From Haloterrigena turkmenica DSM 5511 (GTDB lineage Archaea; Halobacteriota; Halobacteria; Halobacteriales; Natrialbaceae), in the NCBI RefSeq assembly GCF_000025325.1, contig NC_013746.1, positions 1 to 64,000 on the forward strand: a DNA stretch of 64,000 nt. The letters are read 5' to 3'. The position numbers and the translations under genes are program-made. Below the pieces are notes generated by a model. It worked only from the letters and a program-made list of their open reading frames with translations, had not been told where the DNA came from and searched no databases. Positions 2,917 through 63,663 of the stretch are shown here, one piece after another (position 1 is the first letter of the stretch; each line of letters starts with the position of its first letter).

Positions 2917-3615
2917 GACTCGAGTAGTCGCGTCATCGTCGTTGCAGTCTCCGGGCGGCCGGCGTCGGTGACAGTGATCGGGACGGCGATCTCTGGTGCG
3001 TCTTCGAGAACGTCACCTGGCGATGAGAGCTGCGTCTCGAGCAGGTCCCGGATCCGATGGATGTCTGGGCTCCGGAGCACGACCGATCCGATCAACTCGC
3101 CATGTGGATCCGCAGCGTCGACCGTCGGTGAGAGCGACGGCTTACCGGCGTCGGTCTCGAGGAGATAACGGTAGGGAGCGAACACACCGTATTTCGATTG
3201 GATGAGTACCGATCGTGTGATTGACTCGGCAAGTCCCTCGAGGTCGGCACTCTCGCGGCCACTAGGGACGCGAACGTCACGAACGACATCGATCCAGTAG
3301 CGTCGAGTAGATGGATGAGAGAGCCCGCGAGACCGTGACTCGAGCGCATGATCTCGGCGCCGAGTGCAGATATGTCGTCGCCGGTGGCTCGAGAGGGCAG
3401 AGTCGTCAGCTCCTCGAGCGTCTCGCCTCACTTAGCGAGCGTTGTGCGGAGGATCTCGGGGTTGTTGAGAGCGGCCTCGGAGAGTCCACCAATGTTTCGA
3501 GCGCCACGAAGGATTGCAGGCGATTCATCGAGTGTGTCGACTATCTCTCTGAACTCACAGCCCGGATGTGGCATGAAATTCGGCTTGAGTTGCGAATGGG
3601 TGATCAGTCAGTACA
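2917..3615 (-). pseudogene. Middle-domain fragment (F1) of the 841-residue HTH protein family
   Basis: On the minus strand three frames together match the central part of the intact protein at 47371-49896: ESPAILRGARNIGGLSEAAL, then MRSSHGLAGSLIHLLDATG, then LIQSKYGVFAPYRYLLE, SLSPTVDAADPHGELIGSVV and DIHRIRDLLE. The counterpart residues are roughly 385-610. It has at least one internal stop after LRTTLAK and a frameshift near 3290. Both the N-terminal ATPase-like part and the C-terminal helix-turn-helix are missing. Its outer end (about 3570-3615) is nearly identical to the end of fragment F5 near 44,422. Confidence 0.8.
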
Positions 3616-17901: not shown

Positions 17902-18151
17902 GCTAAGAACACCCTTCCCCGGTGACAGGGTCGATCGGCTCGAGCATAAGGTGTAGCCTCCTGAGCCGCGTCTTGAGCGTCCGCCTGCAGGTGGTCGTAT
18001 ACCTGTACTGATCACCCTACTGTGTTGAAGAAAGAAGGAAGGCGGCATGCCGATTGGCTAGCAGTGGCTGCTCCTCTATGAAGGCTCAATAGGAGTGGAA
18101 CTGACCGAAATCGGCCTGATAGCCTCTGAGCTAATAGGACTGGTACACTAA
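17902..18151. repeat. Short repeat shared with the 3' flank of the 841-residue gene
   Basis: CTCGAGCATAAGGTGTAGCC and TCCTGAGCCGCGTCTT at about 17940-17976 recur with few changes at about 47317-47351, just past the end of the intact 841-residue gene. Here it stands alone, about 750 bases from fragment F2. The remainder of this gap contains nothing I can support. Confidence 0.5.
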
Positions 18152-18730: not shown

Positions 18731-18985
18731 CTAAGGATTCATCGCTGTTGGTCCAGTGATCGGCTGTTGGGAGACTGGTTGTCCCACAGCGATCGGCGTC
18801 TCGCGATTCGGTCGCTCAGTGCCAGTCAACTGTGCGGCCAGTCTGGCCCACGGCGCAACAGCAGGCTGATCCGCCAACGACCACGGATCGGACGGCCAAA
18901 AGAGGGTTCCGCCGATCGGGTCCTCAGAATCGCCGTATCGGTCCGGTGGAAGTATTGTCTCGAGTAAATAGCTAGCCGTTGCAAG
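18731..18985 (-). pseudogene. C-terminal fragment (F2) of the 841-residue HTH protein family
   Basis: It reads LLETILPPDRYGDSEDPIGG then TLFWPSDPWSLADQP and LAAQLTGTERPNRETPIAVG. This matches the last 90 residues of the protein at 47371-49896 (FLESILPPARYGDPDDPLGS...LFWPPDP). It diverges at the very end (SQQPITGPTAMNP against PLTQQALCA), so it comes from a different subfamily than fragments F3 and F4. The helix-turn-helix and everything before it are missing. Confidence 0.72.
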
Positions 18986-19086
18986 GACGGCCGCCACGAC
19001 TAATTCGAGCCAGAGATCTCTCTCAACTTCTATCCATACACTCCGATATTCGGTACTATTATTCGGACCTTGGAGAATACCTACCT

Positions 19087-25601: not shown

Positions 25602-25769
25602 ATGACTGACCGCGGCAAGCGTTTCACGATCGATGACGACGATGTCGTCGACGACGGGAGAATTGACCGCTATCGTCGGGCAGACACCCTCGGACGGCAG
25701 GCCCAGCGAGAGTATCGCGAACTTGAGCGGTTCGTCGAGTGGGCCGCCGGCGAACGCGGCAACGACTGA
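25602..25769 (+). CDS. Small plasmid-type protein (55 aa), paralogue of the relic at 47125-47324
   Basis: The frame runs from ATG 25602 to TGA 25767-25769: MTDRGKRFTIDDDDVVDDGR then IDRYRRADTLGRQAQREYRE and LERFVEWAAGERGND. The opening RGKRFTIDD.DVVD..RIDRYRRA is repeated at 47324 on the minus strand. The acidic start and helical, Arg/Glu-rich end suggest an antitoxin-like protein, but no partner follows here. At the other locus a 114-residue gene overlaps its end. Function unknown. Confidence 0.55.
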   Translation: MTDRGKRFTIDDDDVVDDGRIDRYRRADTLGRQAQREYRELERFVEWAAGERGND

Positions 25770-34499: not shown

Positions 34500-34878
34500 C
34501 TGGGAGTTGATTACGGTGCTGCCCGCTCGGTCGGCGAGGTCACGCTGTGACAGGCGGTTTTCGGCTGTGAGAAGCGTCTGAACGAGTTGGCCAACTGTCG
34601 GTGGGAGATCGACGAGCAACTGCTCGGGGTCGAGCGTTCCCAATGCATAGCGGAGTTCGTCCAGCCGGAGTTCTCGGCTGTCGTCTTCGCTAGCGAGTTG
34701 CTGGAGTGCGTGGGCAGCAGCGTATGGTGAGCTGACTACCGCCTAGAGGAGGGAGATGCTGTCTCGAGTCGGTCGGAGGTTCGTGGCCTGCAGGATCCGC
34801 GTCGCAGCCATCGCGTAGCCCGTTCGATCGACCGACGAGAGGGAGATGTGGACAGCGAATTCGGAGCGTCCTCAGCGA
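34500..34878 (-). pseudogene. Fragment (F3) of the 841-residue HTH protein family
   Basis: The minus strand matches about residues 565-695 of the protein at 47371-49896: VHISLSSVDRTGYAMAATRI, LRPTRDSISLL (then a stop), LRYALGTLDPEQLLVDLPPT and LLTAENRLSQRDLADRAG. There it switches to unrelated sequence (STVINSQIAKRLKTE). Compared with the intact gene it has one C fewer in GCTCC(C)GAATTC, which breaks the frame. Upstream it is joined to a flavoprotein fragment at about 34878. The bases 34367-34499 on its other side hold only a short plus-strand frame (MGEVNRLIDPELLVEVEAVA). Confidence 0.82.
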
Positions 34879-36040: not shown

Positions 36041-36748
36041 TCACGCGCAAAGCGCTTGCTGCGTGAGCGGTGGACCCATCTGTACGGCTCGGTTGTTCTC
36101 GGTCGATTCTGTCGCTGTGAGCGCCGCTGCCAGCTGTAGCCACAGACCGACTCTGGGATGATCGAGTAATCGTACTGGATCTGGTGGCCAGAACAGTACA
36201 CTTCCTATCGGGTCGTCGGGGTCGCCATACCGATCTGGGGGAAGAAATATTTCGAGGAGTGCGTCAGCTGCATCACGTAGCGTCTGGTTCTCCTCGAGGC
36301 CGGTCGGAACAACGGGCTCGCGACGTTCGGTGGCCGTTCGGAACGACAACGCCAGTCGATACCCGCTCTCGTCGACGCGAATGAGATCGAGCGCCTCGAG
36401 TCGGTCGCGATAGTTTCGGATCGTCCGTGCCGAAACATCCGCTCGGTCGGCAAGTTCGCACTGTGAGATTCGGCTCTCGGTGGTGAGAAGCGTGTGGATG
36501 ATTCGACCAACGGCCGGTGGGAGGTCAGCGAGTAACTGCTCGGGCTCGAGCGTGCCTTGCGGGACTCCGTCCCGTGTGGCCGACTCATCGGGCAGCGAAT
36601 CACGCTCGAGAACGACGACCTCGTCGAATCCGTCAGCGAGGACGCGCGCGGCACAGAGCCCAGCCATACTCCCCCCAAGAACGACTGCCCGGTGGCCAAC
36701 ATCGGTGACGCGGTCACGTTTGAATCGGTCCACGTTTGCCAGCGTCAT
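36041..36748 (-). CDS. In-frame chimera (F4): FAD-binding start fused to the HTH tail of the 841-residue family (235 aa)
   Basis: Residues 1-65 (MTLANVDRFKRDRVTDVGHR then AVVLGGSMAGLCAARVLADG) are the Rossmann start of a haloarchaeal FAD-dependent oxidoreductase with the GxxxG(L)xxA dinucleotide motif. From about residue 66 (TLEPEQLLADLPPAVGRIIH) it matches the last 175 residues of the protein at 47371-49896, including the helix-turn-helix (SQCELADRADVSARTIRNYR) and the conserved end PPLTQQALCA. The frame is open throughout, with no frameshift at the junction. It could be expressed as a new flavin-site/DNA-binding hybrid or be a silent recombination product. Confidence 0.75.
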   Translation of the reverse strand: MTLANVDRFKRDRVTDVGHRAVVLGGSMAGLCAARVLADGFDEVVVLERDSLPDESATRDGVPQGTLEPEQLLADLPPAVGRIIHTLLTTESRISQCELADRADVSARTIRNYRDRLEALDLIRVDESGYRLALSFRTATERREPVVPTGLEENQTLRDAADALLEIFLPPDRYGDPDDPIGSVLFWPPDPVRLLDHPRVGLWLQLAAALTATESTENNRAVQMGPPLTQQALCA

Positions 36749-41434: not shown

Positions 41435-43069
41435 TTAGCTGTCGGCCGGAGAGAGATCATCCAGCTGCCGGTCTGCAAGATAGGTTGTTGCAATCTCTTC
41501 TTCTGTTACCGCCGTCAGCTGCGGCGAATGCTGGTTCGAGGCTGCCTGCGCGGCTTCTTGTCGTTCACGGACGAGGTCGATTTCGTCTTGCAGCGGCTTC
41601 GAGATTTCGCGGAGTTCCCGTTGGATTTCTTCTTCACCGCGCTTTGGCGGACCGGAGAGATAGCTACCGATGATGACCGCCAGCATGCTGAGCGTGAATG
41701 CTGGCAGGAGTTCATAGACGTCGAAGATCATGCCCGGCCCCCCGGACGCTTGATTCCAGATGATGGTTGTGACTAGTCCAGTGAACATCCCCGCGAGTAC
41801 ACCCGGCCCTGTTGTTTTCTTCCAATATATCGACATAGCGAGCACGGGACCGATGCTCGCGCCGAGGCCCGCCCAGGCAAACAGGATTGTCGTGTGCACT
41901 GATCCTGGTGTAACCCAAGCCCAGGTAGCGGCCAGGAGGCCAATGGCGAGAACAGACATACGGTTTACGAGGAGAATCTGTCGGTCGCTCGCGTCTTGAT
42001 TGAGAATCCCACTATATACGTCTTCGCCAAACGCGCTGGCAGCGACAAGGAGCTGCGAGTCGGCGGTACTCATAATCGCTGCTACGCCGCCCGCAAGGAG
42101 GAAGCCGGCGAGCCACGGCGGGAGCGTTTCGAGAATCATCATCGGCGCGACGAGATCCTGGTTCTCAATTCCAGGGAGCATCACTACCGCGCCGAGTGAG
42201 ATGATCGGGATGCCGATTAGCGCAATCAACATGAATACGACGGCGACGATCATGGCGTAGCCAGCTTTGGACGGACGTTCCATTCCCATGTATCGGACGA
42301 CGCCGTGCGGTTGGCCGAGCCCGCCCAAGGCGATGACAGCGATTGTCGAGAAGATGAGGAACTCATATGGCGACCGGCCACCGGTAAACGAGGTCATGTT
42401 GTCGCTGGCAGCGTTGTTGAACTGGGTCATCAGCTCATTCGGACCGCCAATAACCACCAATACTGCGATTGGGACAATGATGGCGAACGCGGTCATCAGC
42501 AGGGCTTGGAGTACATCAGTGTAAGCCGACGCGGTGAATCCGCCCATCACGGTGTAGATGACAACGACGCTAAGTGCAATCACGAACCCAAGCTCGTAGG
42601 AGAGTTCGAAGCCGACAGAGATTGCGCTGGCGGCAGCAAGTAATTGGCCTGCGATGTAGCCAGCCATGAATACGCCGATGATGAGCGTGCTCGTGATGCG
42701 GATGAGGTGACTGGTATCCCCGTACCGGGCGGACAGGAATCCGGGGACGGTCAGCGACTTCAAGACGCGTGAATAGCGGCCGATACGTTTCGCCAGTATC
42801 CCCCAGGTCACGATTCCAAGCGGAATCTGCCAGACCATCCACCACAGCGACGAGATACCGTTCGCATAGACAAGTGCCGGGAAGCCGACCACCAACCATC
42901 CGCTCCACAGGCTAGCCTGTTCGCTTAACGCGCCAGTGAACAGATTCAGTTTCCGGCCGCCGAGGAGGTAGTCTGGGACCGTTTCGGTGAGACGTCCACC
43001 GTACGCGCCGATGACGAGGAGTGCGACAAGATACAGGATGAACTCGATGTAGATGATGGTCTCAACCAT
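41435..43069 (-). CDS. Sodium:solute symporter, SSS family (544 aa)
   Basis: I prefer MVETIIYIEFILYLVALLVI (43069), since it overlaps the stop of the small upstream gene (ATGGTTGA); an ATG 11 codons earlier also exists. The 13-helix SSS pattern is clear, with DYLLGGRKLNLFTGALSEQA (the first broken helix, sodium-site region), GFTASAYTDVLQALLMTAFA and AGFLLAGGVAAIMSTADSQL (the conserved A-x-x-S-T-(A/S)-D-S-x-L sodium site). Family members import proline, pantothenate, sugars or betaine-like solutes. Pairing with a DAO enzyme points to an amino acid or betaine. The C-terminal 60 residues are a polar, helical cytoplasmic tail. Confidence 0.93.
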   Translation of the reverse strand: MVETIIYIEFILYLVALLVIGAYGGRLTETVPDYLLGGRKLNLFTGALSEQASLWSGWLVVGFPALVYANGISSLWWMVWQIPLGIVTWGILAKRIGRYSRVLKSLTVPGFLSARYGDTSHLIRITSTLIIGVFMAGYIAGQLLAAASAISVGFELSYELGFVIALSVVVIYTVMGGFTASAYTDVLQALLMTAFAIIVPIAVLVVIGGPNELMTQFNNAASDNMTSFTGGRSPYEFLIFSTIAVIALGGLGQPHGVVRYMGMERPSKAGYAMIVAVVFMLIALIGIPIISLGAVVMLPGIENQDLVAPMMILETLPPWLAGFLLAGGVAAIMSTADSQLLVAASAFGEDVYSGILNQDASDRQILLVNRMSVLAIGLLAATWAWVTPGSVHTTILFAWAGLGASIGPVLAMSIYWKKTTGPGVLAGMFTGLVTTIIWNQASGGPGMIFDVYELLPAFTLSMLAVIIGSYLSGPPKRGEEEIQRELREISKPLQDEIDLVRERQEAAQAASNQHSPQLTAVTEEEIATTYLADRQLDDLSPADS

Positions 43070-43223
43070 GATCGGCACCCCGTTCGGTACTGGATTCGTC
43101 ATGTGCGTTTCCGAGAATCGCCTCGTCGGATTCGTGGAAATAACGGACGTACAGTAGCGCGATTCCGAGCCATACTAGAATGTTTCCTCCATAGAAAAAG
43201 AGGAGTTCAACCCACGTCAGCAT
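43062..43223 (-). CDS. Small single-pass partner of the symporter (53 aa)
   Basis: The start MLTWVELLFFYGGNILVWLG (43223) is chosen because an earlier ATG would add only polar residues. One hydrophobic helix (LLFFYGGNILVWLGIALLYV) is followed by an acidic tail (RYFHESDEAILGNAHDESST). Its stop overlaps the symporter start, so the two are translationally coupled. Tiny membrane proteins directly before SSS symporters are known as symporter accessory proteins in other prokaryotes; that this one has that role is inference from position and form. Confidence 0.75.
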   Translation of the reverse strand: MLTWVELLFFYGGNILVWLGIALLYVRYFHESDEAILGNAHDESSTERGADHG

Positions 43224-43472: not shown

Positions 43473-44170
43473 CGAGGGGCAGAGGTGCTCGCCGACGGCA
43501 CTAAGGTCCGCGCTCGCGAGGCGGTCATCGCGAACCTGACGCCGACAGTGTTGTACGACCGGCTCGTCAACGACACTGCACTCCCCCAGTCGTTCCGGGA
43601 GACGGTCGACCGCTACGAGTACGGTCCAGGGGCGATGATGATCCATCTCGCGCTCAATGATCTTCCAGACTGGGACGCTGACCCGGAGCTGTCGGAGTTT
43701 ACATACGTCCACATCGCGCCGGGTGTCGATGACTTGGCAGAGACGTACACCGCCACCCAGAACGGGTACCTACCCGAATCGCCGATGCTCGTCGTCGGAC
43801 AGACGACTGGGGTGGACGAGTCCCGAACGCCTGACGACGGGCACATCCTCTGGGTCCAGATGCGGGCGCTCCCGTCAGAGATCGAGGGCGACGCCGACGA
43901 GATCGAGGCAACCGACTGGGAGGCAGCTGCCGAGCTGATGGCCGATCGCATCCTCGACAAACTCGAGATGTACGCGCCTGGGATTCGGGACTCGATTCGC
44001 GATTGGGATGTGCACTCGCCCGTGGACCTCGAAGCAACCAACCCGAACCTCGTCGGCGGCGATAGTGTCGCCAGGAGTCACCACCTTCGACAGAACTTCT
44101 TGTGGCGGCCATTCCCCGGCTGGTCGAGGTACGGCACGCCTGTCGAGGACCTCTACGTCTGCGGATGTGA
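43473..44170 (+). pseudogene. Phytoene-dehydrogenase-like FAD oxidoreductase fragment
   Basis: The frame reads GAEVLADGTKVRAREAVIAN then PDWDADPELSEFTYVHIAPG, WRPFPGWSRYGTPVEDLYVC and ends abruptly CGCDGRE. This matches the C-terminal half of the carotenoid-desaturase-like (PYROXD2-type) oxidoreductases, where LY.CGA..HPGGG... should follow. The FAD-binding N-terminus is absent and the terminal FAD-contact motif is cut at about 44170 by sequence of the 841-residue family (F5). The ORF is open from 43401, but that first part is unrelated. Confidence 0.82.
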
Positions 44171-44422
44171 CGGTAGGGAGTGAACACACCGTATTTCAAT
44201 TGGATGAGTACCGATCGAGTGATTGACTCGGCGAGCCCCTCGAGGTCGGTGTTGTGCGGTGGGTCTCGGAGTCGTTGAGAGCAGCCTTGGAGAGTCCACC
44301 GATTTTCGAGCGCCACGAAGGATCGCAGGCGGTTCATCGAGTGCGCCGACTACCTCTCTGAACTCACAGCGCGGATGTAGCATGAAATCCGGCTTGAGTT
44401 GCGAATGGGTGATTAGTCAGTA
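44171..44422 (-). pseudogene. Fragment (F5) of the 841-residue HTH protein family
   Basis: The minus strand reads CEFREVVGALDEPPAILRGA and, after a deletion, LEGLAESITRSVLIQLKYG (compare ESPAILRGARNIGGL and LEGLAESITRSVLIQSKYG in F1). It therefore joins two parts of the central domain with about 100 residues missing between them. The outer end (GCATGAAATCCGGCTTGAGT) repeats 3571-3615. The other end is joined to the flavoprotein fragment. Not functional. Confidence 0.75.
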
Positions 44423-44495
44423 CAGACGAAGGCGTTACCGGAGCGACTATCTAATTCTCTGGCATCTGCCAATAGAAGCGCGCTGAATACAGAGG

Positions 44496-45308
44496 ATGGG
44501 GGTTGTGTCGCTCGCCCAAAAAGCCGTCGTTGGTCCGCCAGCTCCGGCCTACCGTCCCGGAGAAGAAGGCTACGCTGACTGGGTGATTCTTGCCGTTCAG
44601 GGGTTGAAGGAGTATCTCGGCCATCCGTACCGGAAGCTGATGGACGTCCTCCGCGAGATGCCGAGAGTGACGAAATCACTCGGATTGACGCCTGAAACGG
44701 TCCCACACTTCTCGGCCGTATGTATACGAAAGCAGGCGATTCCGATGAAGCAGTGGCATGCGATCCTCAATCAGTCCGTTGAGATGTATGATCTCGGTAA
44801 TGTGCAGGCGATCGACGCAACCGGTGTCGATCGCGTCCAGGCCAGCCAGCACTACGCAAAACGGACGGACTACACGTTCGAGGCGGTGAAGACGACGCTG
44901 CTCATTGATTGTGAAACCAGTGCGATTCTCGATATACACTGTTCGATGAAACAACCGCACAATACGCAAGTCGGCTGGCAGGTGTTAGTGCGGAATCTCG
45001 ACGATTTGGCGACTGTCGCTGCCGATAAGGGCTACGACTGGGAGGTGCTTCGCACGAGGTTGCGTGCAGAAAGTATCACGCCGCTGATTCCGCAGCGAGA
45101 TCCTGGGATACGGGGGTGGGCGAGAAACTTGCTCATCAAGGATCGGGCGTATCACCAGCGCTCGAACGCTGAATCCGTATTTTTCGAACTCCGACGTAGA
45201 TACGGCGATACGCTCTAGTCGAGAACCTGGTTCGGGCAATTCCGTGAACTTGGCATGAAATCCGCGGTCCGCAACATCGAACGCGCCATCGAGGACTCAC
45301 AGCCGTGA
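44496..45308 (+). pseudogene. IS5-group transposase with an in-frame stop near its end
   Basis: The frame covers most of a transposase: YADWVILAVQGLKEYLGHPY, VQAIDATGVDRVQASQHYAK (first catalytic Asp), VAADKGYDWEVLRTRLRAES (second Asp), and SNAESVFFELRRRYGDTL (catalytic Glu). A TAG at 45216-45218 interrupts it; the same frame then continues SRTWFGQFRELGMKSAVRNI then ERAIEDSQP to a TGA at 45306-45308. Homologues usually have a sense codon there, so this copy is inactive unless read through. It is unrelated in detail to the IS5 relic at 23011. Terminal repeats were not located. Confidence 0.82.
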
Positions 45309-46783: not shown

Positions 46784-47128
46784 CTATACAGGACACCGAA
46801 GACGCGGGAGTCCCAGAGCTGATACACGCACTGTATTCAGCACGACTCGTCGAAAATTATCTGAACTGGTAGGTTCCTCAGAGGTCACCCCGCATGTGTA
46901 GTGAGCGTGTGCTGCACGCTGAAATACATCTGAAGAATAGGATTGTAACAGAGCCGTCTCAAGGAGTGTCTCATGCAGTTCGTCGACGAGAATCTGCTTG
47001 CCATCAACGGCGCCACGTTCTGGGTGATACCTCTGATCACCGTACTCTAGGTCGGGAACCAGATCGTCGACATCGAGAGCTCGGTCGAACTCAGGGACGT
47101 CCTGTGGATCGGGCTCGTCTGGCGTCAT
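46784..47128 (-). CDS. Hypothetical plasmid-type protein (114 aa)
   Basis: From ATG 47128 it reads MTPDEPDPQDVPEFDRALDV then DDLVPDLEYGDQRYHPERGA and VDGKQILVDELHETLLETAL. Its ATG overlaps the stop of the preceding RGKRFTIDD-type frame (CGATGA), so the two formed a coupled pair. The N-terminus is acidic and proline-rich; the middle is helical. The last 30 residues (VVLNTVRVSALGLPRLRCPV) look less natural and may have been added by a frameshift. Function unknown. Confidence 0.5.
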   Translation of the reverse strand: MTPDEPDPQDVPEFDRALDVDDLVPDLEYGDQRYHPERGAVDGKQILVDELHETLLETALLQSYSSDVFQRAAHAHYTCGVTSEEPTSSDNFRRVVLNTVRVSALGLPRLRCPV

Positions 47129-47324
47129 CGGTCGAGCACCTCGACGTCGAGATTCGCACCAGCTGGACCAGCGACCGCTTTCGCACACTCGAGTTCGCGG
47201 CCTCTCGCTGGGCCTGCCGTTCGAGAGCGACTGCCCGACGATAGCGGTCGATTCTCTCGCCGTCGACGACATCGTTGTCATCAATCGTGAACCGCTTGCC
47301 ACGGTGGTCAAACTGCTCGAGCAT
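47125..47324 (-). pseudogene. Paralogue of the 55-residue protein at 25602, frameshifted
   Basis: From ATG 47324 the frame reads MLEQFDHRGKRFTIDDNDVV then DGERIDRYRRAVALERQAQR, matching the protein at 25602-25769. It shifts frame at GAGAGGCCGCGAAC and continues RELECAKAVAGPAGANLDVE then VLDR to a TGA that overlaps the next gene. It shows that this small gene normally sits before a second gene. Confidence 0.55.
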
Positions 47325-47370
47325 TAAGGTGTAGCCTTCTGAGCCGCGTCTGTTCAGGCGCGAGAGGGTG

Positions 47371-49896
47371 TCAAGCGCAAAGCGCTTGCTGCGTGAGCGG
47401 TGGGCCCATCCGTACGGTTCGATTGCTTCTAGTCGATCCTGTCGCTGTCAGCGCAGCTGCGAGTCGCAGCCACGAGCCAACTCGGTGGTGATCGAGTAAT
47501 CGCGACGGATCCGGTGGCCAGAACAGTACGCTGCCAAGTGGGTCGTCGGGATCACCGTATCGCGCTGGCGGGAGGATTGACTCGAGAAAGGCGTCGGCGG
47601 CGTCGAGAAGCGTCTGATTCTCCTTGAGAACGATCGGGACGACTGGATCACGGCGTTCGGTACTGGTTTGGAACGACAGCACTAGACGATATCCAGTCTC
47701 GTCAACACGAATGAGATCGAGTGCCTCAAGGTGATCGCGATAGTTCCGAATGGTCCGTGCTGAGACGCCTGCCCGGTCGGCGAGGTCACGCTGTGACAGG
47801 CGGTTTTCGGCTGTGAGAAGCGTCTGAACGATTCGGCCAACTGTCGGTGGGAGAGCGGAGAGCAACTGCTCGGGATCGAGTGTTCCTAACGCATAGCGGA
47901 GTTCGTCGAGCCGGAGCTCTCGGCTGTCGTCTTCGGTGGCGAGTTGCTGGAGTGCTCGAGCAGTGGCGTACGGTGAGTTGGTCACTGCGTGAAGCAGCGA
48001 GACAGCGTCTCGAGTCGGTCGGAGGTTCTTGTCTTGCAGGATCCGCGTCGCAGCCACCGTGTAGCCTGTTCGATCGACCGTCGAGAGGGAGACGTGGATA
48101 GCGAATTCGGGAGCGTCATCAACGACCGCTGCTGGCCTCTCGAGTGCCTCCTCCAGAGATTGGTGAAGACGATGGACATCCTCACCACGAACGACGACAG
48201 AGCCGATGAGCGTCCCTAACGGGTTATCTGCATCAACAGTCGGGGAGAGTGCAGTGTGACGCTTTTCCTCACGAGACTCGAACAGTTGGCGGTAGGAGGC
48301 GAACGCACCGTATTTCGACTGAATTGCCGTCGAAATGCTGATCGAGGTTGCGAGTTCCGTGAGCGAGTTCGTGTCGAGTCCAGACGGGACTCGAAGTTCG
48401 CGAGTGATGTCGATCTCGAGAGCATCGAAGAGATGCACGATCGAGCCGGCAAGGCCGTGAGCGGAGCGCATAATCTCGCTACGGAAGCGGTCGCGATCCT
48501 CGTACTCGCCGGCTGCGAGTTTCGCGGTGAGATCCTCGAGGTCAGTCCCCCACTCGATGAACGCTTCACGGAGTGCCTTGGGATCCTCAAGTGCTTCATC
48601 GGAGAGTGCACCGATACAGCGAGCGTCTCGCAAGATTGCCGGTGGATCCTCCAGCGACTCGAGACGACTGTCAGTGAGCACTCGGTTGAGCAATTGCGGC
48701 GAGGCTAACGCTGTCGCAAGACTCACCACATACTGCAGGGGCCCACTTGCCCGAACCGCGACCACGGCTTCCTCGCGATCAGCGTCGAAACTCACGTATC
48801 GAGTATGGTCAGGACCGTCCGTATGGTCCTCAAACGGGGCCTCAACAAGGGTGACCCCGCCGTCCTCTCCACAGCCAGCAGCGGCGGCATGCCCCGGACG
48901 GTCGAGGTAGGCCGTTCGGTAGGGGTTGCTGTCCTCTCCGCCGTCATGCCCCTCCCCTCGTGCGTGCGGGGTTACACGGCACTGTTGGGAGGATGTTCCG
49001 GTGTCGCTCACGGCCTCGGTCAGTTCCTGTTGCCGACCGTGTTGGGCGTCGAGCGTGGCGAGTAGCTGTCGACCGGCCTCGAGCAACTCGACAGTCCGAT
49101 CATCGGCAGGGCCGAACTCAGCGACCAGTCCAAGCTCAGTGAGCGAGTTCGTCTCGGAGACCAAGAGCTGGGAGATCCGACTGCGATCGACGTCATGCAT
49201 CGCCCGCAGCGCGTGCCGAGAGAGTGTCTGAGCGGGTTCGTCGGCGAGTTGCCGAAGGAGTTCGACCTTTCGGCCATCAGGATCCAGCGCCTCGAGGGCG
49301 TCGTCGACGCGGTCCCCAGCAGGATGGTGTGTCTCTCGCCATTCGCTCACGCCGGGGAGGTCTTCGCGGTGGTGCTGGGCAAGCCAGTGCTGGGTCCGTC
49401 CGGTTGCGATGATACGGACATCGAAGCCCGTTGCGAGGATGGCGAGTAGGCGACAGATTGGCTCTCGTTTCCGTCGAGGGGTGTTCTCAAATTCGCGGTC
49501 GATGGTGACTGCAAGCGTCGATGGCTGGTCGTCAGGAAGGTGGTCGGTGAAGAATTGAGCGGTCGCGAACAGGTCCTCGAGACTCGCATGACCTTGCCCG
49601 AGCGTTGGCACGAGATCGGCGGCAAGCCGCCACGCATCGCGACGGTTCCCGCGGGCGACCTCGAGGATTCTGGAGCGCAACCAGTAGGGGACGTTCTGCT
49701 CCTCGAGGGCGTCATAGCAGTCCGGGACGGTGCGGCCGTCGGCAAACCGGCGCACGGCACGGATGAACAGCTCTCGGATCGACTGCTGGGCGAACAGCTG
49801 GTCCCACAGCTCCGAGACAGGATCGGTGTCGATCTCGAGGGTGGCCTGTGGGGACAGCGGCGGCTGCTGGGTCGGTGTGAGTCCCGCGTCGGTCAC
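47371..49896 (-). CDS. Large multidomain HTH protein, intact copy of the dispersed family (F6, 841 aa)
   Basis: This is the only full-length member of a family present six times in the window. Residues about 30-220 are helical and contain STLAVTIDREFENTPRRKRE then LLAILATGFDVRIIATGRTQ, which resembles the Walker-B side of a P-loop ATPase, but no Walker A is visible. A first winged helix follows (DGRKVELLRQLADEPAQTLS). The central part (about 385-610) is a conserved alpha/beta domain (HGLAGSIVHLFDALEIDITR, AIQSKYGAFASYRQLFESRE). A second helix-turn-helix at about 683-725 (RLSQRDLADRAGVSARTIRN) precedes a C-terminal domain ending PPLTQQALCA. It may be a DNA-binding regulator of plasmid functions. 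It closes a three-gene unit with 50042 and 50407. Confidence 0.8.
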   Translation of the reverse strand: MTDAGLTPTQQPPLSPQATLEIDTDPVSELWDQLFAQQSIRELFIRAVRRFADGRTVPDCYDALEEQNVPYWLRSRILEVARGNRRDAWRLAADLVPTLGQGHASLEDLFATAQFFTDHLPDDQPSTLAVTIDREFENTPRRKREPICRLLAILATGFDVRIIATGRTQHWLAQHHREDLPGVSEWRETHHPAGDRVDDALEALDPDGRKVELLRQLADEPAQTLSRHALRAMHDVDRSRISQLLVSETNSLTELGLVAEFGPADDRTVELLEAGRQLLATLDAQHGRQQELTEAVSDTGTSSQQCRVTPHARGEGHDGGEDSNPYRTAYLDRPGHAAAAGCGEDGGVTLVEAPFEDHTDGPDHTRYVSFDADREEAVVAVRASGPLQYVVSLATALASPQLLNRVLTDSRLESLEDPPAILRDARCIGALSDEALEDPKALREAFIEWGTDLEDLTAKLAAGEYEDRDRFRSEIMRSAHGLAGSIVHLFDALEIDITRELRVPSGLDTNSLTELATSISISTAIQSKYGAFASYRQLFESREEKRHTALSPTVDADNPLGTLIGSVVVRGEDVHRLHQSLEEALERPAAVVDDAPEFAIHVSLSTVDRTGYTVAATRILQDKNLRPTRDAVSLLHAVTNSPYATARALQQLATEDDSRELRLDELRYALGTLDPEQLLSALPPTVGRIVQTLLTAENRLSQRDLADRAGVSARTIRNYRDHLEALDLIRVDETGYRLVLSFQTSTERRDPVVPIVLKENQTLLDAADAFLESILPPARYGDPDDPLGSVLFWPPDPSRLLDHHRVGSWLRLAAALTATGSTRSNRTVRMGPPLTQQALCA

Positions 49897-50041
49897 GGTG
49901 GACTCTCCTCGAGTGGGAGCTGGGGGCGTGCTGACTGGCGAGTGGAGTGGCGTGCCATCGAGTCCTAGAGTCGAGTGCAGAGAGTGCGGACAGCTGAGCG
50001 CAGTGGCTCACCGGCTGTCGGCGTGAGTGCGTGTTAGCGGC

Positions 50042-50410
50042 TCACCGATCCGGGATGGGGATCGCCTCTGATTCGGCGGCCCTGTTGGAGGGTGGACTCG
50101 AATCCTGGATTTCGGGCTCGAGAGCGACGACTCGTGTCTGCTGGGTTGGCAGATCAGCGCGGGTGCCGAGCCTGCACTCGGCGAGGAGTTCCGTACAGCC
50201 ACGTGTTGGCTCTGTGATGGTGTCGGGACTGCAGGCCACGCAGTAGGGTCGATAGATCGCCCAGCGGTCGGTGTCGGCTGGGCGGGAGGCAAGGACGGTC
50301 ACGCGGTCGCCTTCGTACAGTCGGTACTCACAGTGTTGGCACGTGGTGGTGTCGTGGGGACCGACCGGGAACCCCTCGAGGAGTTGGGTAGGGGTGGTGA
50401 CGACCTTCAT
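50042..50410 (-). CDS. Zinc-finger-like protein of the three-gene unit (122 aa)
   Basis: MKVVTTPTQLLEGFPVGPHD leads to TTCQHCEYRLYEGDRVTVLA and YRPYCVACSPDTITEPTRGC, so Cys24/Cys27 and Cys57/Cys60 form a split zinc knuckle. The C-terminal 50 residues are polar. The gene overlaps the 50407 gene by four bases (ATGA), which suggests translational coupling, and lies 145 bases before the 841-residue gene on the same strand. A metal-stabilised adaptor is the simplest reading; function is unknown. Confidence 0.72.
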   Translation of the reverse strand: MKVVTTPTQLLEGFPVGPHDTTTCQHCEYRLYEGDRVTVLASRPADTDRWAIYRPYCVACSPDTITEPTRGCTELLAECRLGTRADLPTQQTRVVALEPEIQDSSPPSNRAAESEAIPIPDR

Positions 50411-50721
50411 TGGTCGTCACCCTCGAGTGCGTCGAGGAATGAGTTCGTGAGACTCGAGTAGAGGTGTTGAGTTGTAAAGCCGCGTTCGGCGGTGACGTAC
50501 TCGATCCAGTCGTTGATGCACTGGTCGACCGCCTCGAGGTCGTAGCGGTAGGTACGGTCGCTGTTGTGGATGACGTGGATGGTCTCGTCGGTGGTTCGGT
50601 AGACGTGGTGTGCGTCTTCGGTGTCGATGCCAACGAGAATGTAGTCTGGTCGGGGGTCAGTGCGACTGCGAGCCGAAACCGTTTCGGTTGTGCGTGGTTG
50701 AATTGACATTGGTCTTGCCAC
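50407..50721 (-). CDS. First gene of the three-gene unit, hypothetical (104 aa)
   Basis: MARPMSIQPRTTETVSARSR then DYILVGIDTEDAHHVYRTTD and YDLEAVDQCINDWIEYVTAE followed by RGFTTQHLYSSLTNSFLDAL. An alpha/beta core (VGIDTEDAHHVYRTTDETIH) is followed by two helices. MSIQPRTTE four codons later is an alternative start. It overlaps the next gene by four bases. The order small alpha/beta protein, zinc-knuckle protein, 841-residue HTH protein looks like a conserved plasmid operon. Its biochemical role is unknown. Confidence 0.7.
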   Translation of the reverse strand: MARPMSIQPRTTETVSARSRTDPRPDYILVGIDTEDAHHVYRTTDETIHVIHNSDRTYRYDLEAVDQCINDWIEYVTAERGFTTQHLYSSLTNSFLDALEGDDQ

Positions 50722-50875
50722 AAGACCGAGGTCGGCTGTTGGCGCAGCCGGCCATGATTTTCCCTGGCAACCCTCGGTCTCTATTCTGTGTTATTTCGGC
50801 AACTCTATTAAACATATTGGTCGTAGGTTGTTACCCATAGGTTTTTGTCGATTGCCGCCCACTTATCAGGCACTA

Positions 50876-51106
50876 ATGAGTAGAGCAACTCAACCTATGG
50901 ATGCAGACAACATGCGAGATGCTGACTGGGCAATTGTAGACGTGCTTCGTGAAGGGAGAGCGAATGCGCCATTAATTGCTGAAGAGACGGGATATTCCTC
51001 GCAATATATTCGCGAGCGTCTTGGGCGGTTGAAGCAGGATAATATCGTTAAGCCGCTTGGTCACGGAATATATGAGGTTGTTCCTGAAGAGTTGCCAGAT
51101 GAATAA
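50876..51106 (+). CDS. Small winged-helix DNA-binding protein (76 aa)
   Basis: The start MSRATQPMDADNMRDADWAI (50876) is preferred to 50828, whose first 16 residues are unlike the family. The body WAIVDVLREGRANAPLIAEE then TGYSSQYIRERLGRLKQDNI and VKPLGHGIYEVV is a compact MarR/Lrp-type winged helix, with the recognition helix SSQYIRERLGRL and wing LGHGIYEV. It lies divergent to the three-gene unit, about 155 bases from its first gene, so it could regulate that unit or the membrane genes downstream. Confidence 0.85.
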   Translation: MSRATQPMDADNMRDADWAIVDVLREGRANAPLIAEETGYSSQYIRERLGRLKQDNIVKPLGHGIYEVVPEELPDE

Positions 51107-51914
51107 TTCACTGAAGAGACGCTTATGAGGCGAATTTGCCCCTAACGCAGCGCCAGACCGGGTCGCAAACACGACGACGTGATTGCCAATCACAGCGGCT
51201 TACGTAGATAAGGCAGCAACGGCAGCCGTGAAAGGACATCTCTCAATAACAAGCAACCTTGAGACCGGTATTAGGTACCTTTAATCTGGTTGCTTCACGG
51301 TCACGGACAAACTTCGCTACGAACCGTACACTGACCTCGACGACAAGTCAGACACGCACAACCACATTAGCCGACATCATGATCTCGGCGAGTTAGAGTT
51401 CGTCCCGGTTGTAGCCCTCAATCCGATTGCGATCTTGAGTTCGACACAGGATCAGTACTTCACAACTCGTCTACGCTGAGTCGGTCTAAAGTCTGACTTC
51501 TCTTATTGATCGGAGTGATCGATGTAGTTCACTCCGGAGATCGACGAGGAGCTGTCGCTGTCGGCGGCGGTCAGCCGCCGACGCGACGGCGTTGCCACTC
51601 TCTACACAGACTTGCTCGGTCAGTAACTACCGGTGGAACCGGTCGTCAGGAGGCCGGTTCGCGGGGACGGCCCGACGCACTGCGAGGGCCGCTCACGCCA
51701 GTTCGGAGTCGTCCATCGGAACGAGTACGTGATCGGGACTGTCCATACCGATCCCTACGAGCGACTGGACCTTCAGTCGTTTCATAGAGTCTCCGTTCCT
51801 GTCCGAACCCTTCTCGGTCCTCGGTCAGTCGGTCCGTCTCGTCGGTACGCGGCGATTCCAGGGCGAGCAGCGGCCGCGCTCACACTTTTCCGCCGCTGGA
51901 TTGATGTCGATACC
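51107..51914. other. Gene-free stretch with a relic
   Basis: About 800 bases. The plus strand at about 51310-51478 reads KLRYEPYTDLDDKSDTHNHI then GELEFVPVVALNPIAILSST and stops near 51478; there is no start, so it is a relic of an unidentified gene. The open frame before 51915 (from 51633) has Arg-rich, non-haloarchaeal composition and is not counted as coding. Confidence 0.35.
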
Positions 51915-56285: not shown

Positions 56286-57428
56286 TCAGTCGCGGACTTC
56301 GTCGATACTGTTGGAGACGTCTTTCATTTGAAGGTCCGTATACGCCTCGTGCGTGGTTTCGATCGACTTGTGGCGTAACGCCTCTTGGGCCTTTTCAGAC
56401 ATGCCGTTGGCGTATAGGTCGCGTCCAAGCGCCCGTCGTGCGCCGTGGAGTGTGAGATAGTCGTAGTCGCCGTCGGGGTCGATGTTCGCCTCTTTCGTGA
56501 GTCGTTTCAACAGTCGGCGGACGCCCTCTTTCGAGATCGACGGCGGCGGGACCTCATGTTCACGGTGCAGGCGGTCGAGAACTGCGGTCTTGCCCTCGTC
56601 ACCCCCTCCCTTGAGTGCCGCGTTCACCCGTTCCTCGCCGAGTTTCTTGATCAACGCGTCCTCTTTCGAGCCGTAGTGGCCAGTCGGGAAGACAGGCCAC
56701 TCGTCAGTCGGCGGCTCGAGGTAGTCATACCATCGCTCGAGGACATTGTGGACACTGTCAGGGAACGGCGCCTCTTCGTACTCGCGAGATTTTCCGTACA
56801 CTTCGATGAGTCGCTGTTCGAAATCGACGTCCGACCACCGGAGGCCGGGCCGTTTGTCGTCTTTCGGGTCGGCGAACAGTTCGGCCCCGCGAGCGCCGGT
56901 TCCACCGAGCATGACCACGATCGCCCGGTCTCGCAGCGCCGCTTTCGGATCGGTGCGGATCGTTCCCTCGAGTGCCATGTCGACGCGCTTGGTTGCGTAG
57001 GCCTCGAGTTGCTGTCGGTCGTCCTCAGACCAGTATTGTGTTTTGCGCTTCCCGTCGTCCTCGGGGAGCGGGTCCATCGCCGTGTTCGTATTCGCCGGGT
57101 TCTGCTCGAGGTGCTGTTCACGGACACACCAGGAGAGGAACGCCCGCACATAGGCGAAGTACGCGTTCGCCGTCGACGCCGCGAGGTTTTCGTCGATCAT
57201 GACGCGGTCGTAGAGGTGTTCACTGTAGCTGCGAATATCCTGGTCGGCCAACTCGCCGACGCAACCGACGCCGCGCTCGTCCTTGCAGTGATCGGCAAAC
57301 GACTCGAGTGGCGAACGCATCGTCGTCTCCGAGCCGTCGGCTTTGATCTTGTATCGCAAGTAGTCCTCAACCGCTTCGTGGACGGTCGTGCCCTCGGGGG
57401 TAGGTCGTCTCTCGCTGGGAGTAGACAT
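56286..57428 (-). CDS. Tyrosine recombinase / integrase, XerC/D-type (380 aa)
   Basis: The N-terminal SAM-like DNA-binding domain spans about 15-120 (VHEAVEDYLRYKIKADGSET, ANAYFAYVRAFLSWCVREQH). The catalytic domain carries the first Arg in MLGGTGARGAELFADP, the HxxR box in LTLHGARRALGRDLYANG, the second His in EALRHKSIETT and the nucleophile Tyr in THEAYTDLQMK. Length and the HKS..TTH.AY end are typical of haloarchaeal plasmid and provirus integrases. A broken second copy of the same type lies 1.2 kb away at 58652. It probably acted on this or an adjoining island. Confidence 0.93.
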   Translation of the reverse strand: MSTPSERRPTPEGTTVHEAVEDYLRYKIKADGSETTMRSPLESFADHCKDERGVGCVGELADQDIRSYSEHLYDRVMIDENLAASTANAYFAYVRAFLSWCVREQHLEQNPANTNTAMDPLPEDDGKRKTQYWSEDDRQQLEAYATKRVDMALEGTIRTDPKAALRDRAIVVMLGGTGARGAELFADPKDDKRPGLRWSDVDFEQRLIEVYGKSREYEEAPFPDSVHNVLERWYDYLEPPTDEWPVFPTGHYGSKEDALIKKLGEERVNAALKGGGDEGKTAVLDRLHREHEVPPPSISKEGVRRLLKRLTKEANIDPDGDYDYLTLHGARRALGRDLYANGMSEKAQEALRHKSIETTHEAYTDLQMKDVSNSIDEVRD

Positions 57429-57907: not shown

Positions 57908-58649
57908 GGCACTGTCTAGTTTAGCACCTCGGCTGGCGTTTGTCCGTTGAGTGACTGGTGCGGTCGTTGTGTGTTATAATAGTGTACGAACTGTTCAAGC
58001 CACTCTCTGACGCTCGCCCGACTGCCCACCCACGAATTATGGAAGCGGTCAACTCGCATCTTGAAGGTGTGAAACCACGTTTCGATTAAGTTTCGATCAA
58101 CGTAGTCGAGCTGACCGCTCAATCCTAATCGGGAGAGGGCAGTCAGATAGCCGTAGCCATCGACGAGAAACATGGTGTCGGAGAGATTGTGTTTCTCGGT
58201 CAATCGATGCAGGAACGCAGCGGCTGGATCGGTGCCTCGTCGTCCGAACACTGCGACATCGAGAACAAGCCTAGTGTCTACGTCTATTGCAGCGTACACC
58301 CAAGACCAGTCGCCGTTAATCTTGACAGCGGTTTCATCAATGGCGACCCGCGACGGCTGCGCCGTCGGCGGGTCTGACACGCTGTCAGCCAGCCGATGTA
58401 CCCAGTGCCAGATTGCTTGATGAGAGCGTTTGACGCCGATCAAGCGAAGAATCGCTTGTGTCTCTCGAAGCGAACAACCGGTCACGTGAAGGCGGACGGC
58501 GAACACCCTGACGGGCGTCGCCGTCCGCTCACGCTCCCAAGCTTCATCAAATTCCGTCGCATAGCACTCGCTGAGCAGGTCTGCGAGCATCATCCCAAAC
58601 TAACTCCACGACCTGCTCGCTTCTCAAACCACGCTAACTAGACGGTGCC
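57908..58649 (-). mobile_element. IS6-group insertion sequence, complete (about 742 bp)
   Basis: Terminal inverted repeats are GGCACTGTCTAGTTTAGC (57908-57925) and, at the other end, GCTAACTAGACGGTGCC (58633-58649), matching except for two positions. One transposase gene fills the interior. The flanks (AACTGTCG and GATTGATG) do not show a target duplication, so the element may have mediated a deletion or replaced sequence: its right end touches the tail of a second integrase. Partial copies lie at 10218-10327 and 28975-29068, and a lone end at 13269. Confidence 0.9.
57916..58593 (-). CDS. IS6-group transposase (225 aa)
   Basis: MMLADLLSECYATEFDEAWE starts the protein. A helix-turn-helix (GCSLRETQAILRLIGVKRSH) follows, then the DDE core with Asp in RVAIDETAVKINGDWSWVYA, Asp in MFLVDGYGYLTALSRLG and Glu in RNLIETWFHTFKMRVDRFHN. 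The end FVHYYNTQRPHQSLNGQTPA is conserved in the group. The frame is complete and the terminal repeats are present, so the element could still be active. IS6 transposases move by a replicative route. Confidence 0.93.
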   Translation of the reverse strand: MMLADLLSECYATEFDEAWERERTATPVRVFAVRLHVTGCSLRETQAILRLIGVKRSHQAIWHWVHRLADSVSDPPTAQPSRVAIDETAVKINGDWSWVYAAIDVDTRLVLDVAVFGRRGTDPAAAFLHRLTEKHNLSDTMFLVDGYGYLTALSRLGLSGQLDYVDRNLIETWFHTFKMRVDRFHNSWVGSRASVREWLEQFVHYYNTQRPHQSLNGQTPAEVLN

Positions 58650-60950: not shown

Positions 60951-62465
60951 TCAGTATGTTGCGTCCACGATGTCATCGTCGAGGGCGTCGAACTGATCGA
61001 GATACGAGCGCCGCTCGGTGCGAAGCGACGCTTGAGCGTCCTCAAAGTCTTCGACGTGGTCAGTGATTACATACTGGTCGATATCGATACCGGGAACCGA
61101 CGTCGGAACCGTGAGGTCAAGCACGTCGTCATCAACCCACTCGATGGTCCCGCGTGCGACACCGTCGAGAATCGCGACTGTTTCCTCGACGCCAACATCG
61201 ACGGGATCGTCGGTGCCGACCACGCCCGTGTTGATCACGTAGCACTCGACGTCGAGATTGGCGATGAGGTCCCGGAACCGGTTACCCTCCTCACCCTCCG
61301 GGCCGATAATAAAGGGGTTGGTACCGACGACACGAATCGACTCGCCGATCCGTGAGGGATCACCCGCGCTCGTCTCCACGGACTCTCCAAGCATGAACGT
61401 GACCGCCGCCTGGGCGTCCGTGAGTTTCGCGATCGGCGGCATAAGGGGGTTTCGGGTGATGAAGAACACTTGGTCGACACCAAGCAGGTCGACATCGTCA
61501 GACGCACTTCCGAGGTGGTCACGGCGAATTACGGCCCGCGCGTTCTGGCCGTACTGTGGGTCGTCGAAGTGGACGGCTCCGTCCTCATCGACGGCTACAT
61601 TCTCGAGAACTGCACTTTCGTCGGTTGCTGCGTCGTGAAGTTCAGGCTGCTCGTCGGCCTCTAGGCCGAGCGTTTTGATGTATAGTCCACCGCCCTCGCT
61701 ACCCGCGACTGTCCCCGAAGGGAGGAGTGCACAGACATCGTCTTGGATCATCTTTGCGTTCTCAGGGTCCTCAAGCCAGAGACCGTGGCTCGTGAGCGTC
61801 GATTTCCCGGTCCCGGAGAGGCCGAGAAAAAGCTGGCCAACATCCTGCAGTCCGTCAGCGTCGTCGATAGTAACGCGCTTACTACCGGCGTGGAGACCGA
61901 GCCCACCCTGTTGTTTAGCGCGGAGCATGAACAACCGGAGGAACGACTTTTTCGCCTCACCGGTGTAGTCGCTCCCCAGTACCGTCGTGACACCGGCCTC
62001 TGGGAGCACGCGAACCTTCGGTTCTGACGTCGCCTCCGGTATCTGTACGGTCACGAAGTCAGGGTCTGTCCCAGTAGCGGGTTCGAGGAGCTTTGCCCAC
62101 GCCAGCGCGATGCGGCTGTACTCCCGCGGGAGAAACAACCGGCAGACGTACGACGACTCGGAATGCCGGCCGACGACGCGGTCAATACAAACGACATCGT
62201 TGTCGGGGTTTTGGATCCACTCGAAGCCGCACTCGAAGACGCGGAAATCCTCGTCGCCGAAGCTGTCATCGACAGCGTTCTTCGTTTGGTCGGTACTCCG
62301 TGAGCGGTATTCGCTGACGTACGCAGGGGCGCCATAGTCCGTCGTCGTCTCTAGATGCGAGGAGTACTCTCGAAGCACTGCCAACGACGGATTGTACGTA
62401 ATGTGGTCAGCCTTCACTGGGTCAGGATAGTCCGTGATTGTGGGTCTATCGTAAGAGGATCCCAT
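60951..62465 (-). CDS. pckA: Phosphoenolpyruvate carboxykinase (ATP) (504 aa)
   Basis: The enzyme converts oxaloacetate and ATP to phosphoenolpyruvate, ADP and CO2, the first step of gluconeogenesis. The kinase-1a P-loop is GLSGTGKST (215-223), the kinase-2 metal site is MIQDDV (239-244), and the upstream substrate region TGEAKKSFLRLFMLRAKQQG then GLGLHAGSKRV is conserved. NPLMPPIAKLTDAQAAVTFM and YVINTGVVGTDDPVDVGVEE complete the C-terminal domain. Length 504 is close to the usual 520-540. It stands alone with a TATA-like TTTATTAAC upstream. It is a chromosomal-type metabolic gene, unlike the accessory DNA before it. Confidence 0.95.
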   Translation of the reverse strand: MGSSYDRPTITDYPDPVKADHITYNPSLAVLREYSSHLETTTDYGAPAYVSEYRSRSTDQTKNAVDDSFGDEDFRVFECGFEWIQNPDNDVVCIDRVVGRHSESSYVCRLFLPREYSRIALAWAKLLEPATGTDPDFVTVQIPEATSEPKVRVLPEAGVTTVLGSDYTGEAKKSFLRLFMLRAKQQGGLGLHAGSKRVTIDDADGLQDVGQLFLGLSGTGKSTLTSHGLWLEDPENAKMIQDDVCALLPSGTVAGSEGGGLYIKTLGLEADEQPELHDAATDESAVLENVAVDEDGAVHFDDPQYGQNARAVIRRDHLGSASDDVDLLGVDQVFFITRNPLMPPIAKLTDAQAAVTFMLGESVETSAGDPSRIGESIRVVGTNPFIIGPEGEEGNRFRDLIANLDVECYVINTGVVGTDDPVDVGVEETVAILDGVARGTIEWVDDDVLDLTVPTSVPGIDIDQYVITDHVEDFEDAQASLRTERRSYLDQFDALDDDIVDATY

Positions 62466-62760: not shown

Positions 62761-63663
62761 TCATATCCCTCGGTCTTGGAAATATTCTTCTTCTGGGAGA
62801 TCTATGTTCGCATCACCTTTCATCCCCTTGCCAAGGTTCTTCGAAATCTTGGTGAGCTGTTCAGGGTCGTTCCAGTGATTCGTTGCCTCGACGACCGCCT
62901 TAGCCATCGCGGACGGGTTCTCCGCACCGAAGATACCGCTGCCAACGAAAATTCCATCGCATTCGTGGTACATCATGAGCGCGGCGTCGGCTGGTGTCGC
63001 GATGCCACCTGCCGCGAAATTCACGACCGGCAGTCGACCACGGTCGGCGGTCTCGTGGACTAGTTCCATAGGCGCCTCAATCTCACGGGCGTAGGCTTCA
63101 CGCTCTTCGTGGGTCATTCCTTCCAATTTGCGGATCGAACCCTTAATCTGGCGCTGATGGTGAACGGCCTGGTTGACGTTACCAGTGCCTGCTTCGCCCT
63201 TAGTGCGAATCATCGCCGCGCCCTCCTCGATGCGCCGGAGCGCCTCACCGAGGTTGCGCGCGCCACAGACAAACGGCACCGTAAAGTCGCGCTTGTCGAT
63301 ATGGTAGGCGTCATCAGCGGGAGTGAGTACCTCGCTCTCGTCAACCATGTCCACACCAACGGCCTCGAGGATCTGGGCTTCCTTTCTGTGGCCGATACGA
63401 GCCTTGCCCATCACTGGAATCGATACTTCGTTGACGATCTCTTCAACGTCTGCGGGGTCAGCCATCCGGGCAACACCGCCACGTTTGCGGATGTCTGCCG
63501 GTACTGCTTCTAGTGCCATGACAGCGACCGCACCAGCGTCCTCGGCGATCCGAGCCTGCTCTGGATTGATGACATCCATAATGACACCGCCTTTTTGCAT
63601 CTGTGCAAAGCCACGTTTGATGAGGTCAGTTCCATATTGGAGACTCTCCAAGTCACTTGCCAT
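62761..63663 (-). CDS. pdxS: Pyridoxal 5'-phosphate synthase, synthase subunit PdxS (300 aa)
   Basis: PdxS makes pyridoxal 5'-phosphate from ribose 5-phosphate, glyceraldehyde 3-phosphate and ammonia supplied by the glutaminase PdxT. The (beta/alpha)8 signature is complete: [20 protein letters not shown] (Asp30), [11 protein letters not shown] (Lys87, Schiff base) and [20 protein letters not shown] (Lys155, second Lys), with [20 protein letters not shown] and [12 protein letters not shown] forming phosphate sites. Length 300 is normal. pdxT is not in the window. A TATA-like stretch precedes the gene. Confidence 0.97.

Follow-up and report, generated by a model that had tools for sequence, protein, structure and literature searches.

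The 64-kb window analysed here (bases 1-64000 of the 181-kb contig C4, in a genome of 5.44 Mb and 7 contigs) carries one intact gene for the plasmid replication protein RepH together with five truncated copies, all on the minus strand. With a probability of roughly two in three, we contend that the intact gene belongs to a RepH cassette lying near an AT-rich presumptive origin and that the fragments are dead repH genes of other plasmids, which were fused with the replicon by crossover and subsequently deleted from their 5' side. Haloarchaea distribute their genomes over many large plasmids, and how these arose is a matter of debate.

The replication protein and its three-gene cassette

The intact gene (47371-49896, minus strand, GTG start) encodes 841 amino acids, of which residues 2-831 match phrog_17376, annotated as 'replication protein' (E 2e-120). 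Named RepH relatives occur in the haloviruses ChaoS9, phiH and phiCh1 and on the plasmids pNRC100 and pNG300 (Haloarcula marismortui), in addition to a large ORF of pHV2. Identities obtained by tblastn were 36% for ChaoS9 RepH, 31% for phiH, 32% for the 'replication protein H' of pNG300, 30% for pHV2 and 25% for pNRC100 RepH, and the records with a RepH match comprised 61 plasmids and 10 viruses. These matches identify the protein as RepH, which serves pNRC100, pHV2-type plasmids and phiH/ChaoS9-type viruses as replication protein and is presumably the initiator of a haloarchaeal plasmid family. The initial annotation had regarded the function of the unit as undescribed, which no longer holds given that the unit carries RepH, and the identification provides a function for a gene family often annotated as 'hypothetical' or 'HTH protein'. 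An initiator of the Orc1/Cdc6 type was rejected, as neither an AAA+ domain nor a TIGR02928 match was detected in Pfam or NCBIfam; a separate Orc1/Cdc6 gene is located on the same contig (C4:97685-98788).

The only part of the protein recognised by Pfam is a helix-turn-helix (HTH) near residues 690-730. An AlphaFold2 model built with 23 sequences (mean pLDDT 83, pTM 0.61) appears, from our reading of the predicted secondary structure, to contain two winged helices at about residues 205-271 and 684-738. The top viral match of the predicted fold in Foldseek was ChaoS9 RepH (E 3e-53), and the best PDB matches, among those listed, were MarR/ArsR winged helices with E of 0.08 or more. A fold search with the N-terminal part found no solved relative and matched winged helices only. 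The P-loop-like part proposed at the outset was not confirmed, since the Walker A motif GxxxxGK[S/T] was not found in the 841-residue sequence and no P-loop match appeared among the PDB fold-search matches listed; a P-loop NTPase was therefore discarded.

Two small genes precede repH on the same strand. Gene 2 (50042-50410, minus strand) encodes a Cys-rich protein of 122 amino acids with CxxC pairs and immediately precedes repH in about ten relatives from the close subfamily, and gene 1 (50407-50721, minus strand; 104 amino acids) overlaps gene 2, is kept in the same relatives and has a single copy in this genome. Conservation indicates that the true start of gene 1 is likely the ATG at 50709. 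The ten or so distinct relatives with both genes upstream of repH belong to Natronococcus, Haloterrigena and neighbours, and the three genes are contiguous in nearly all of them. DNA homology to close relatives spans 47378-50784, from the repH stop codon to approximately 60 bp upstream of gene 1, and mostly ends at both limits, with one relative extending it to 51284. Genes 1 and 2 were not found beside the more distant RepH genes of pHV2, pNRC100 and ChaoS9. Given this confinement to close relatives, the three-gene cassette (47371-50784) is a subfamily trait and, as far as comparative evidence goes, serves replication in a single RepH subfamily. The check whether the three genes are always adjacent thus gave a positive answer for nearly every close relative examined but not for distant RepH genes.

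The GC content falls to 46-51% over 50.7-51.5 kb, compared with 60-68% over the genes, which makes this stretch a candidate origin region. It sits 5' of the three-gene cassette and not directly 5' of repH. A search upstream of the cassette revealed neither iterons nor other repeats beyond short pairs attributable to chance. An alignment of 7 relatives revealed a conserved inverted repeat, AGACCGAGG...CCTCGGTCT (50723-50780, minus strand), just upstream of gene 1, which forms the 5' limit of the cassette common to intact copies and is a candidate regulatory or origin element. A conserved RNA or DNA hairpin is not claimed here (consensus fold -13.8 kcal/mol, arms kept in 5 of the 7 relatives), as covariation was weak, with two-sided change in 3 of 18 pairs. 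A divergently transcribed gene (50882-51106, plus strand) encodes a winged-helix protein of 74 amino acids (Pfam HTH_24, E 2e-5) that is kept with the cassette in two relatives, G005C2 and G092C28.

Repeated DNA also flanks the cassette. A block directly downstream of the intact repH (46891-47351) recurs with 86% identity at C4:102165-102623, and parts of it are found at 17929-17973 and 25609-25727; the homology junction at about 47347-47351 suggests that the resident repH has exchanged its 3' flank. On the other side, 193 bp upstream of and into a 449-amino-acid gene at 51633 (51499-51691) are 99.5% identical to C4:152458-152650, by which measure this repeat is a very recent duplication.

Comparison with known systems places this arrangement among several related ones. 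The RepH of pNRC100/pNRC200 of Halobacterium is likewise a large protein, homologous over residues 100-729, and the pNRC100 minimal replicon depends for autonomous replication on repH and on an AT-rich stretch located 5' of the gene (Ng and DasSarma, 1993, as summarised in PMC1906834). The region upstream of repH in pNRC100 can be interrupted and partly deleted (PMC1447603). The Halobacterium protein differs, however, in being only 25% identical to the window protein, and genes 1 and 2 were not found upstream of its gene. In the 6.4-kb plasmid pHV2 of Haloferax volcanii, the homologous ORF (WP_010889896; 30% over residues 77-762) is annotated as hypothetical, although low homology of Hvo_D0003 to repH was noted earlier (PMC3528665); unlike the present contig, pHV2 is a small stand-alone plasmid without the three-gene cassette. 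The haloviral proteins of ChaoS9, phiH1 and phiCh1 are 28-36% identical to the window protein, and in ChaoS9 repH is likewise preceded by small genes and by one for a zinc finger, with a MarR gene adjoining, but these are viral genomes, and no homologues of genes 1 and 2 were detected among their upstream genes.

Remnants in the window and across the Natrialbaceae

The report of six occurrences in 64 kb, five of them fragmentary, was upheld. Fragments were located by tblastn with the 841-residue protein, except for the 44.2-kb piece, which is too short for tblastn with this query and was placed by DNA matches. The first remnant (2847-3541, minus strand) covers residues 412-644 and is frameshifted with one or more stops; tblastn aligned 2919-3541 with residues 412-621 (47%, E 3e-42). 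The second (18758-18988, minus strand) covers residues 763-839, and tblastn aligned 18752-18988 with residues 763-841 (48%, E 1e-15). The third (34512-34868, minus strand) covers residues 595-713 with one stop, and its tblastn match at 34521-34862 has 83% identity over residues 597-710 (E 5e-47). The fourth (36044-36559, minus strand) covers residues 670-841 and reaches the stop codon, with 79% identity over residues 671-841 at 36044-36556 (E 7e-79). The fifth (44163-44431, minus strand) corresponds to about residues 413-500 and was recognised by DNA matches to the G093C1 and G005C2 copies; its parts at 44163-44249 and 44251-44344 match repH genes from a related subfamily, located on other replicons, with 85-92% identity (E 4e-26 to 2e-55), and 44251-44441 is 88% identical to the window's own copy at 2.9-3.6 kb. 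As the 34.5- and 36-kb pieces share residues 670-713, and the 2.9- and 44.2-kb pieces share residues 413-500, they must represent separate copies and not a single broken gene. The 34.5- and 36-kb fragments group with the window's own RepH subfamily, whereas those at 2.9, 18.7 and 44.2 kb group with a second subfamily, represented by a G093 copy that is itself 55% identical to the window protein; the earlier proposal of at least two subfamilies was thus correct.

It had also been stated that no transposase or terminal repeats accompany the fragments. A DDE-transposase ORF (44496-45218, Pfam DDE_Tnp_1) in fact starts 65 bp from the 44.2-kb fragment and a phage-integrase-family gene lies at 56286-57428, but neither bounds the set. 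A transposable element was rejected, since the cassette has no transposase, the 5' ends of the fragments vary and homology of intact copies stops at the repH stop codon. A 743-bp element at 57908-58649, probably a small insertion element, recurs at C4:88331-89072 and C2:301350-302092 and splits a repH remnant at C4:134.7-136.2 kb (91-97% identity). The window further contains plasmid-borne metabolic genes for a sodium:solute symporter (41435-43102), an ATP-type phosphoenolpyruvate carboxykinase (60951-62465) and a PdxS-like protein of the SOR/SNZ family (62761-63663).

The genome as a whole yielded 25 repH matches, including 2 intact copies (on C4 and on the 71-kb contig C6) and about 17 remnants, the latter on C2, C3 and C4 and none on C1, the largest contig. 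Among 125 Natrialbaceae genomes, 44 gave a repH match and 81 had no detectable copy; many of the positive genomes hold one copy and a subset holds large numbers of remnants. The refuting condition that most genomes hold only single stable copies is consequently half true, in that most have none or one, but not for the remnant-rich subset. Ten remnant-rich genomes were searched in depth, and for most others a limited number of candidates was scored. After merging collinear pieces and adding the 44.2-kb copy from its DNA matches, the Natrialbaceae catalogue contains at least 126 copies (21 full-span and 105 fragments). An order-wide search with the RepH profile scored three candidates per genome, which makes fragment counts outside the Natrialbaceae unusable, and many of its low matches are to the HTH only. 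The distribution of intact copies and remnants supports the idea that the gene is repeatedly gained and lost. It is not strictly plasmid-borne, because RepH is chromosomal in some cases (Natrinema gelatinilyticum NZ_CP100756, single-contig genome G119). In G119, two intact repH genes with equal scores lie 61 kb apart in direct orientation (C1:521650-524160 and 582392-584902), possibly reflecting a recent duplication or an integration bounded by repH.

Truncation of the copies is strongly polar. Among the Natrialbaceae copies scored, 59 fragments keep only the C-terminal end and 3 only the N-terminal end, and whereas the N-terminus of RepH is covered by about 2 copies, coverage climbs to about 60 at the C-terminal end. 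The first 400 residues show conservation equal to or above that of the remainder when the closest intact relatives are compared (in one example 92, 83, 97 and 91% for the first four blocks of one hundred vs 87, 83 and 66% for the last three), and a profile search of the fragment flanks for the N-terminal part found almost nothing; the loss of 5' sequence is therefore real and not an artefact of detection. The positions of the 5' ends vary, so that a fixed break point was discarded. No remnants of genes 1 and 2 were found beside repH fragments in this genome. At C4:134.6 kb, 40 bp of gene 2 are joined directly to repH codon 588, a structure that identifies this remnant as an internal deletion of the same cassette.

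The copies are also co-oriented. Among the Natrialbaceae copies scored, neighbouring repH genes share a strand in 65 of 70 pairs (31 of 32 at spacings of 5-60 kb), compared with 51-55% of ordinary ORF pairs in the same regions, and direct orientation was found for 43 of 48 repH pairs vs 25 of 38 (66%) for other repeated DNA; as these pairs are non-independent, coming from the same genus and including remnants inherited from a common ancestor, such as the 36-kb piece here and its 93% identical counterpart at 282.6 kb in G005, no probability is attached to the bias. Co-orientation fits the earlier suggestion of homologous recombination between plasmids.

Source of the remnants and competing explanations

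The fragments derive from several donors. For each of the four window fragments tested, the closest relative is a copy other than the resident repH; these best partners lie on other replicons or belong to other species (77-93% DNA identity). The nearest copies of the 34.5-kb fragment are at G000 C3:190 kb (90%) and an intact G003 gene (90%), and the 36-kb fragment is 93% identical to a G005 C2 remnant. For two remnants on C3, the 3' flank matches the sequence that follows repH genes in a relative.

These affinities make it improbable that the fragments are decayed duplicates of the resident gene, produced within the replicon by segmental or tandem duplication. Such an origin would fit copies in the same orientation on the same replicon, and a 2.3-kb duplicated block is indeed common to C2:284 kb and C3:149 kb (94%), but the fragments have their nearest relatives elsewhere, two subfamilies are present and 3' flanks match foreign repH genes. 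There is next to no prospect that the resemblance merely reflects chance similarity among HTH-containing proteins. HTH motifs alone do give weak order-wide matches (E about 1e-5 to 1e-9); the fragments, however, reach 47-83% identity at the protein level (E as low as 7e-79), for the most part in regions other than the HTH, and are 77-93% identical in DNA to other repH copies, so the objection that they might align no better than unrelated families did not hold. We give little credence to the view that C-terminal pieces are retained as working truncated proteins, acting as a winged-helix repressor, an incompatibility factor or a decoy against other RepH plasmids. Most pieces do retain residues 684-738, the predicted winged helix, and long open pieces without stops or indels exist (C3:149839-150810, C2:237450-238616 and C4:36044-36559); the share of differences at third codon positions is 0.63-0.65 in some fragments, compared with 0.64-0.71 in intact pairs. 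Many pieces nevertheless carry stops, frameshifts or an inserted element, the winged helix is missing from those at 2.9, 18.7 and 44.2 kb, and the third-position share in other fragments is 0.50-0.57, as decay predicts.

A further possibility is dedicated recombination at a site or boundary at the repH 3' end, with every arriving element displacing a 3' fragment in the manner of integrases that act at the ends of genes. The site TTAACCAAC-N22/25-GTTGGTTAA, with perfect arms and a variable interior, occurs in Natronococcus about 45-100 nt past the repH stops of several copies and follows most C-terminal copies in a 40-kb Natronococcus array, and the nearest remnant lies downstream of an intact or near-intact repH, within about 10 kb, in G000 C4, G086 C30, G041 C45 and G093 C1. 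Doubt is cast on this explanation, which we regard as a poor candidate, by the absence of the site from the window and from the 3' flanks of most repH copies in this genome, by its frequency in genomes without RepH, by 5' break points that vary, unlike a fixed att site, and by the short upstream side of some of the four supporting contigs. As an explanation of the window array, the site was rejected, because the window contains none. It was found in 85 of 125 Natrialbaceae genomes, with up to 26 per genome, and gave no matches in shuffled or reversed controls of the genomes listed. Sites are mostly off the largest contig and also occur in many viral contigs; locations include G086 C30, G092 C28, G093 C1 and, in this genome, C3:143660 and C3:170275, and ChaoS9 carries three (33055, 45387 and 52588), there also just after orc1. 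An ORF of at least 90 amino acids contains 19 of the 112 distinct sites, and the sites often closely follow the 3' ends of genes, with 36 of 73 flanking 3' ends lying within 60 bp. Recombination, partition or replication are the options for its role.

A proposed route of plasmid fusion and megaplasmid assembly

The favoured explanation, fusion by crossover followed by 5' deletion, would proceed as follows. A second RepH plasmid would enter the cell and be incompatible with the resident RepH plasmid, and a single crossover within the common repH sequence would fuse both circles, leaving direct repeats and hence two copies in the same orientation. Because two RepH origins on one molecule would be disfavoured, a deletion would remove the origin of the redundant copy together with genes 1 and 2 and the 5' half of its repH; this would also lock the fusion since the long direct repeat is gone, and the 3' remnant would then decay. 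Repeated rounds could build co-oriented, 3'-anchored arrays of remnants around one intact repH. Arrays may also surround no intact repH, on replicons now probably served by Orc1/Cdc6 origins; C2, C3, C4, C5 and C6 each carry Orc1/Cdc6 genes. No junction at which an entire donor plasmid is fused in between two repH copies was observed.

Related processes have been reported for another origin type. In Haloarcula hispanica, an incompatible origin plasmid ends up integrated (PMC3936714), and the gain and disruption of origins in haloarchaeal replicons is an accepted idea (PMC4441112). The orc/cdc6 origins of Haloarcula (PMC4441112) resemble the present case in that replicons acquire foreign origins that are later disrupted, but there single copies are disrupted, whereas RepH leaves many remnants with fixed orientation and 5' loss. 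The repH gene family itself is already known; truncated, oriented, 3'-anchored arrays of repH remnants appear to be undescribed, as no description was found in the open-access literature.

It can be speculated, as a rather unlikely extension, that RepH replicons absorb one another by a directional process that centres on the 3' region of repH and in Natronococcus may use the undescribed inverted repeat TTAACCAAC-N22/25-GTTGGTTAA, which is widespread on haloarchaeal plasmids and viruses, each fusion silencing one origin and leaving an oriented 3' tag; megaplasmids would then hold a readable record of the plasmids they have swallowed. Orc1/Cdc6 genes in six of the remnant-rich genomes are represented by many full-length copies and few fragments, and this difference from RepH suggests that initiator types differ in how far several per molecule are tolerated. 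If the remnants are indeed scars of plasmid fusion, they would provide a countable and orientable record of megaplasmid assembly.
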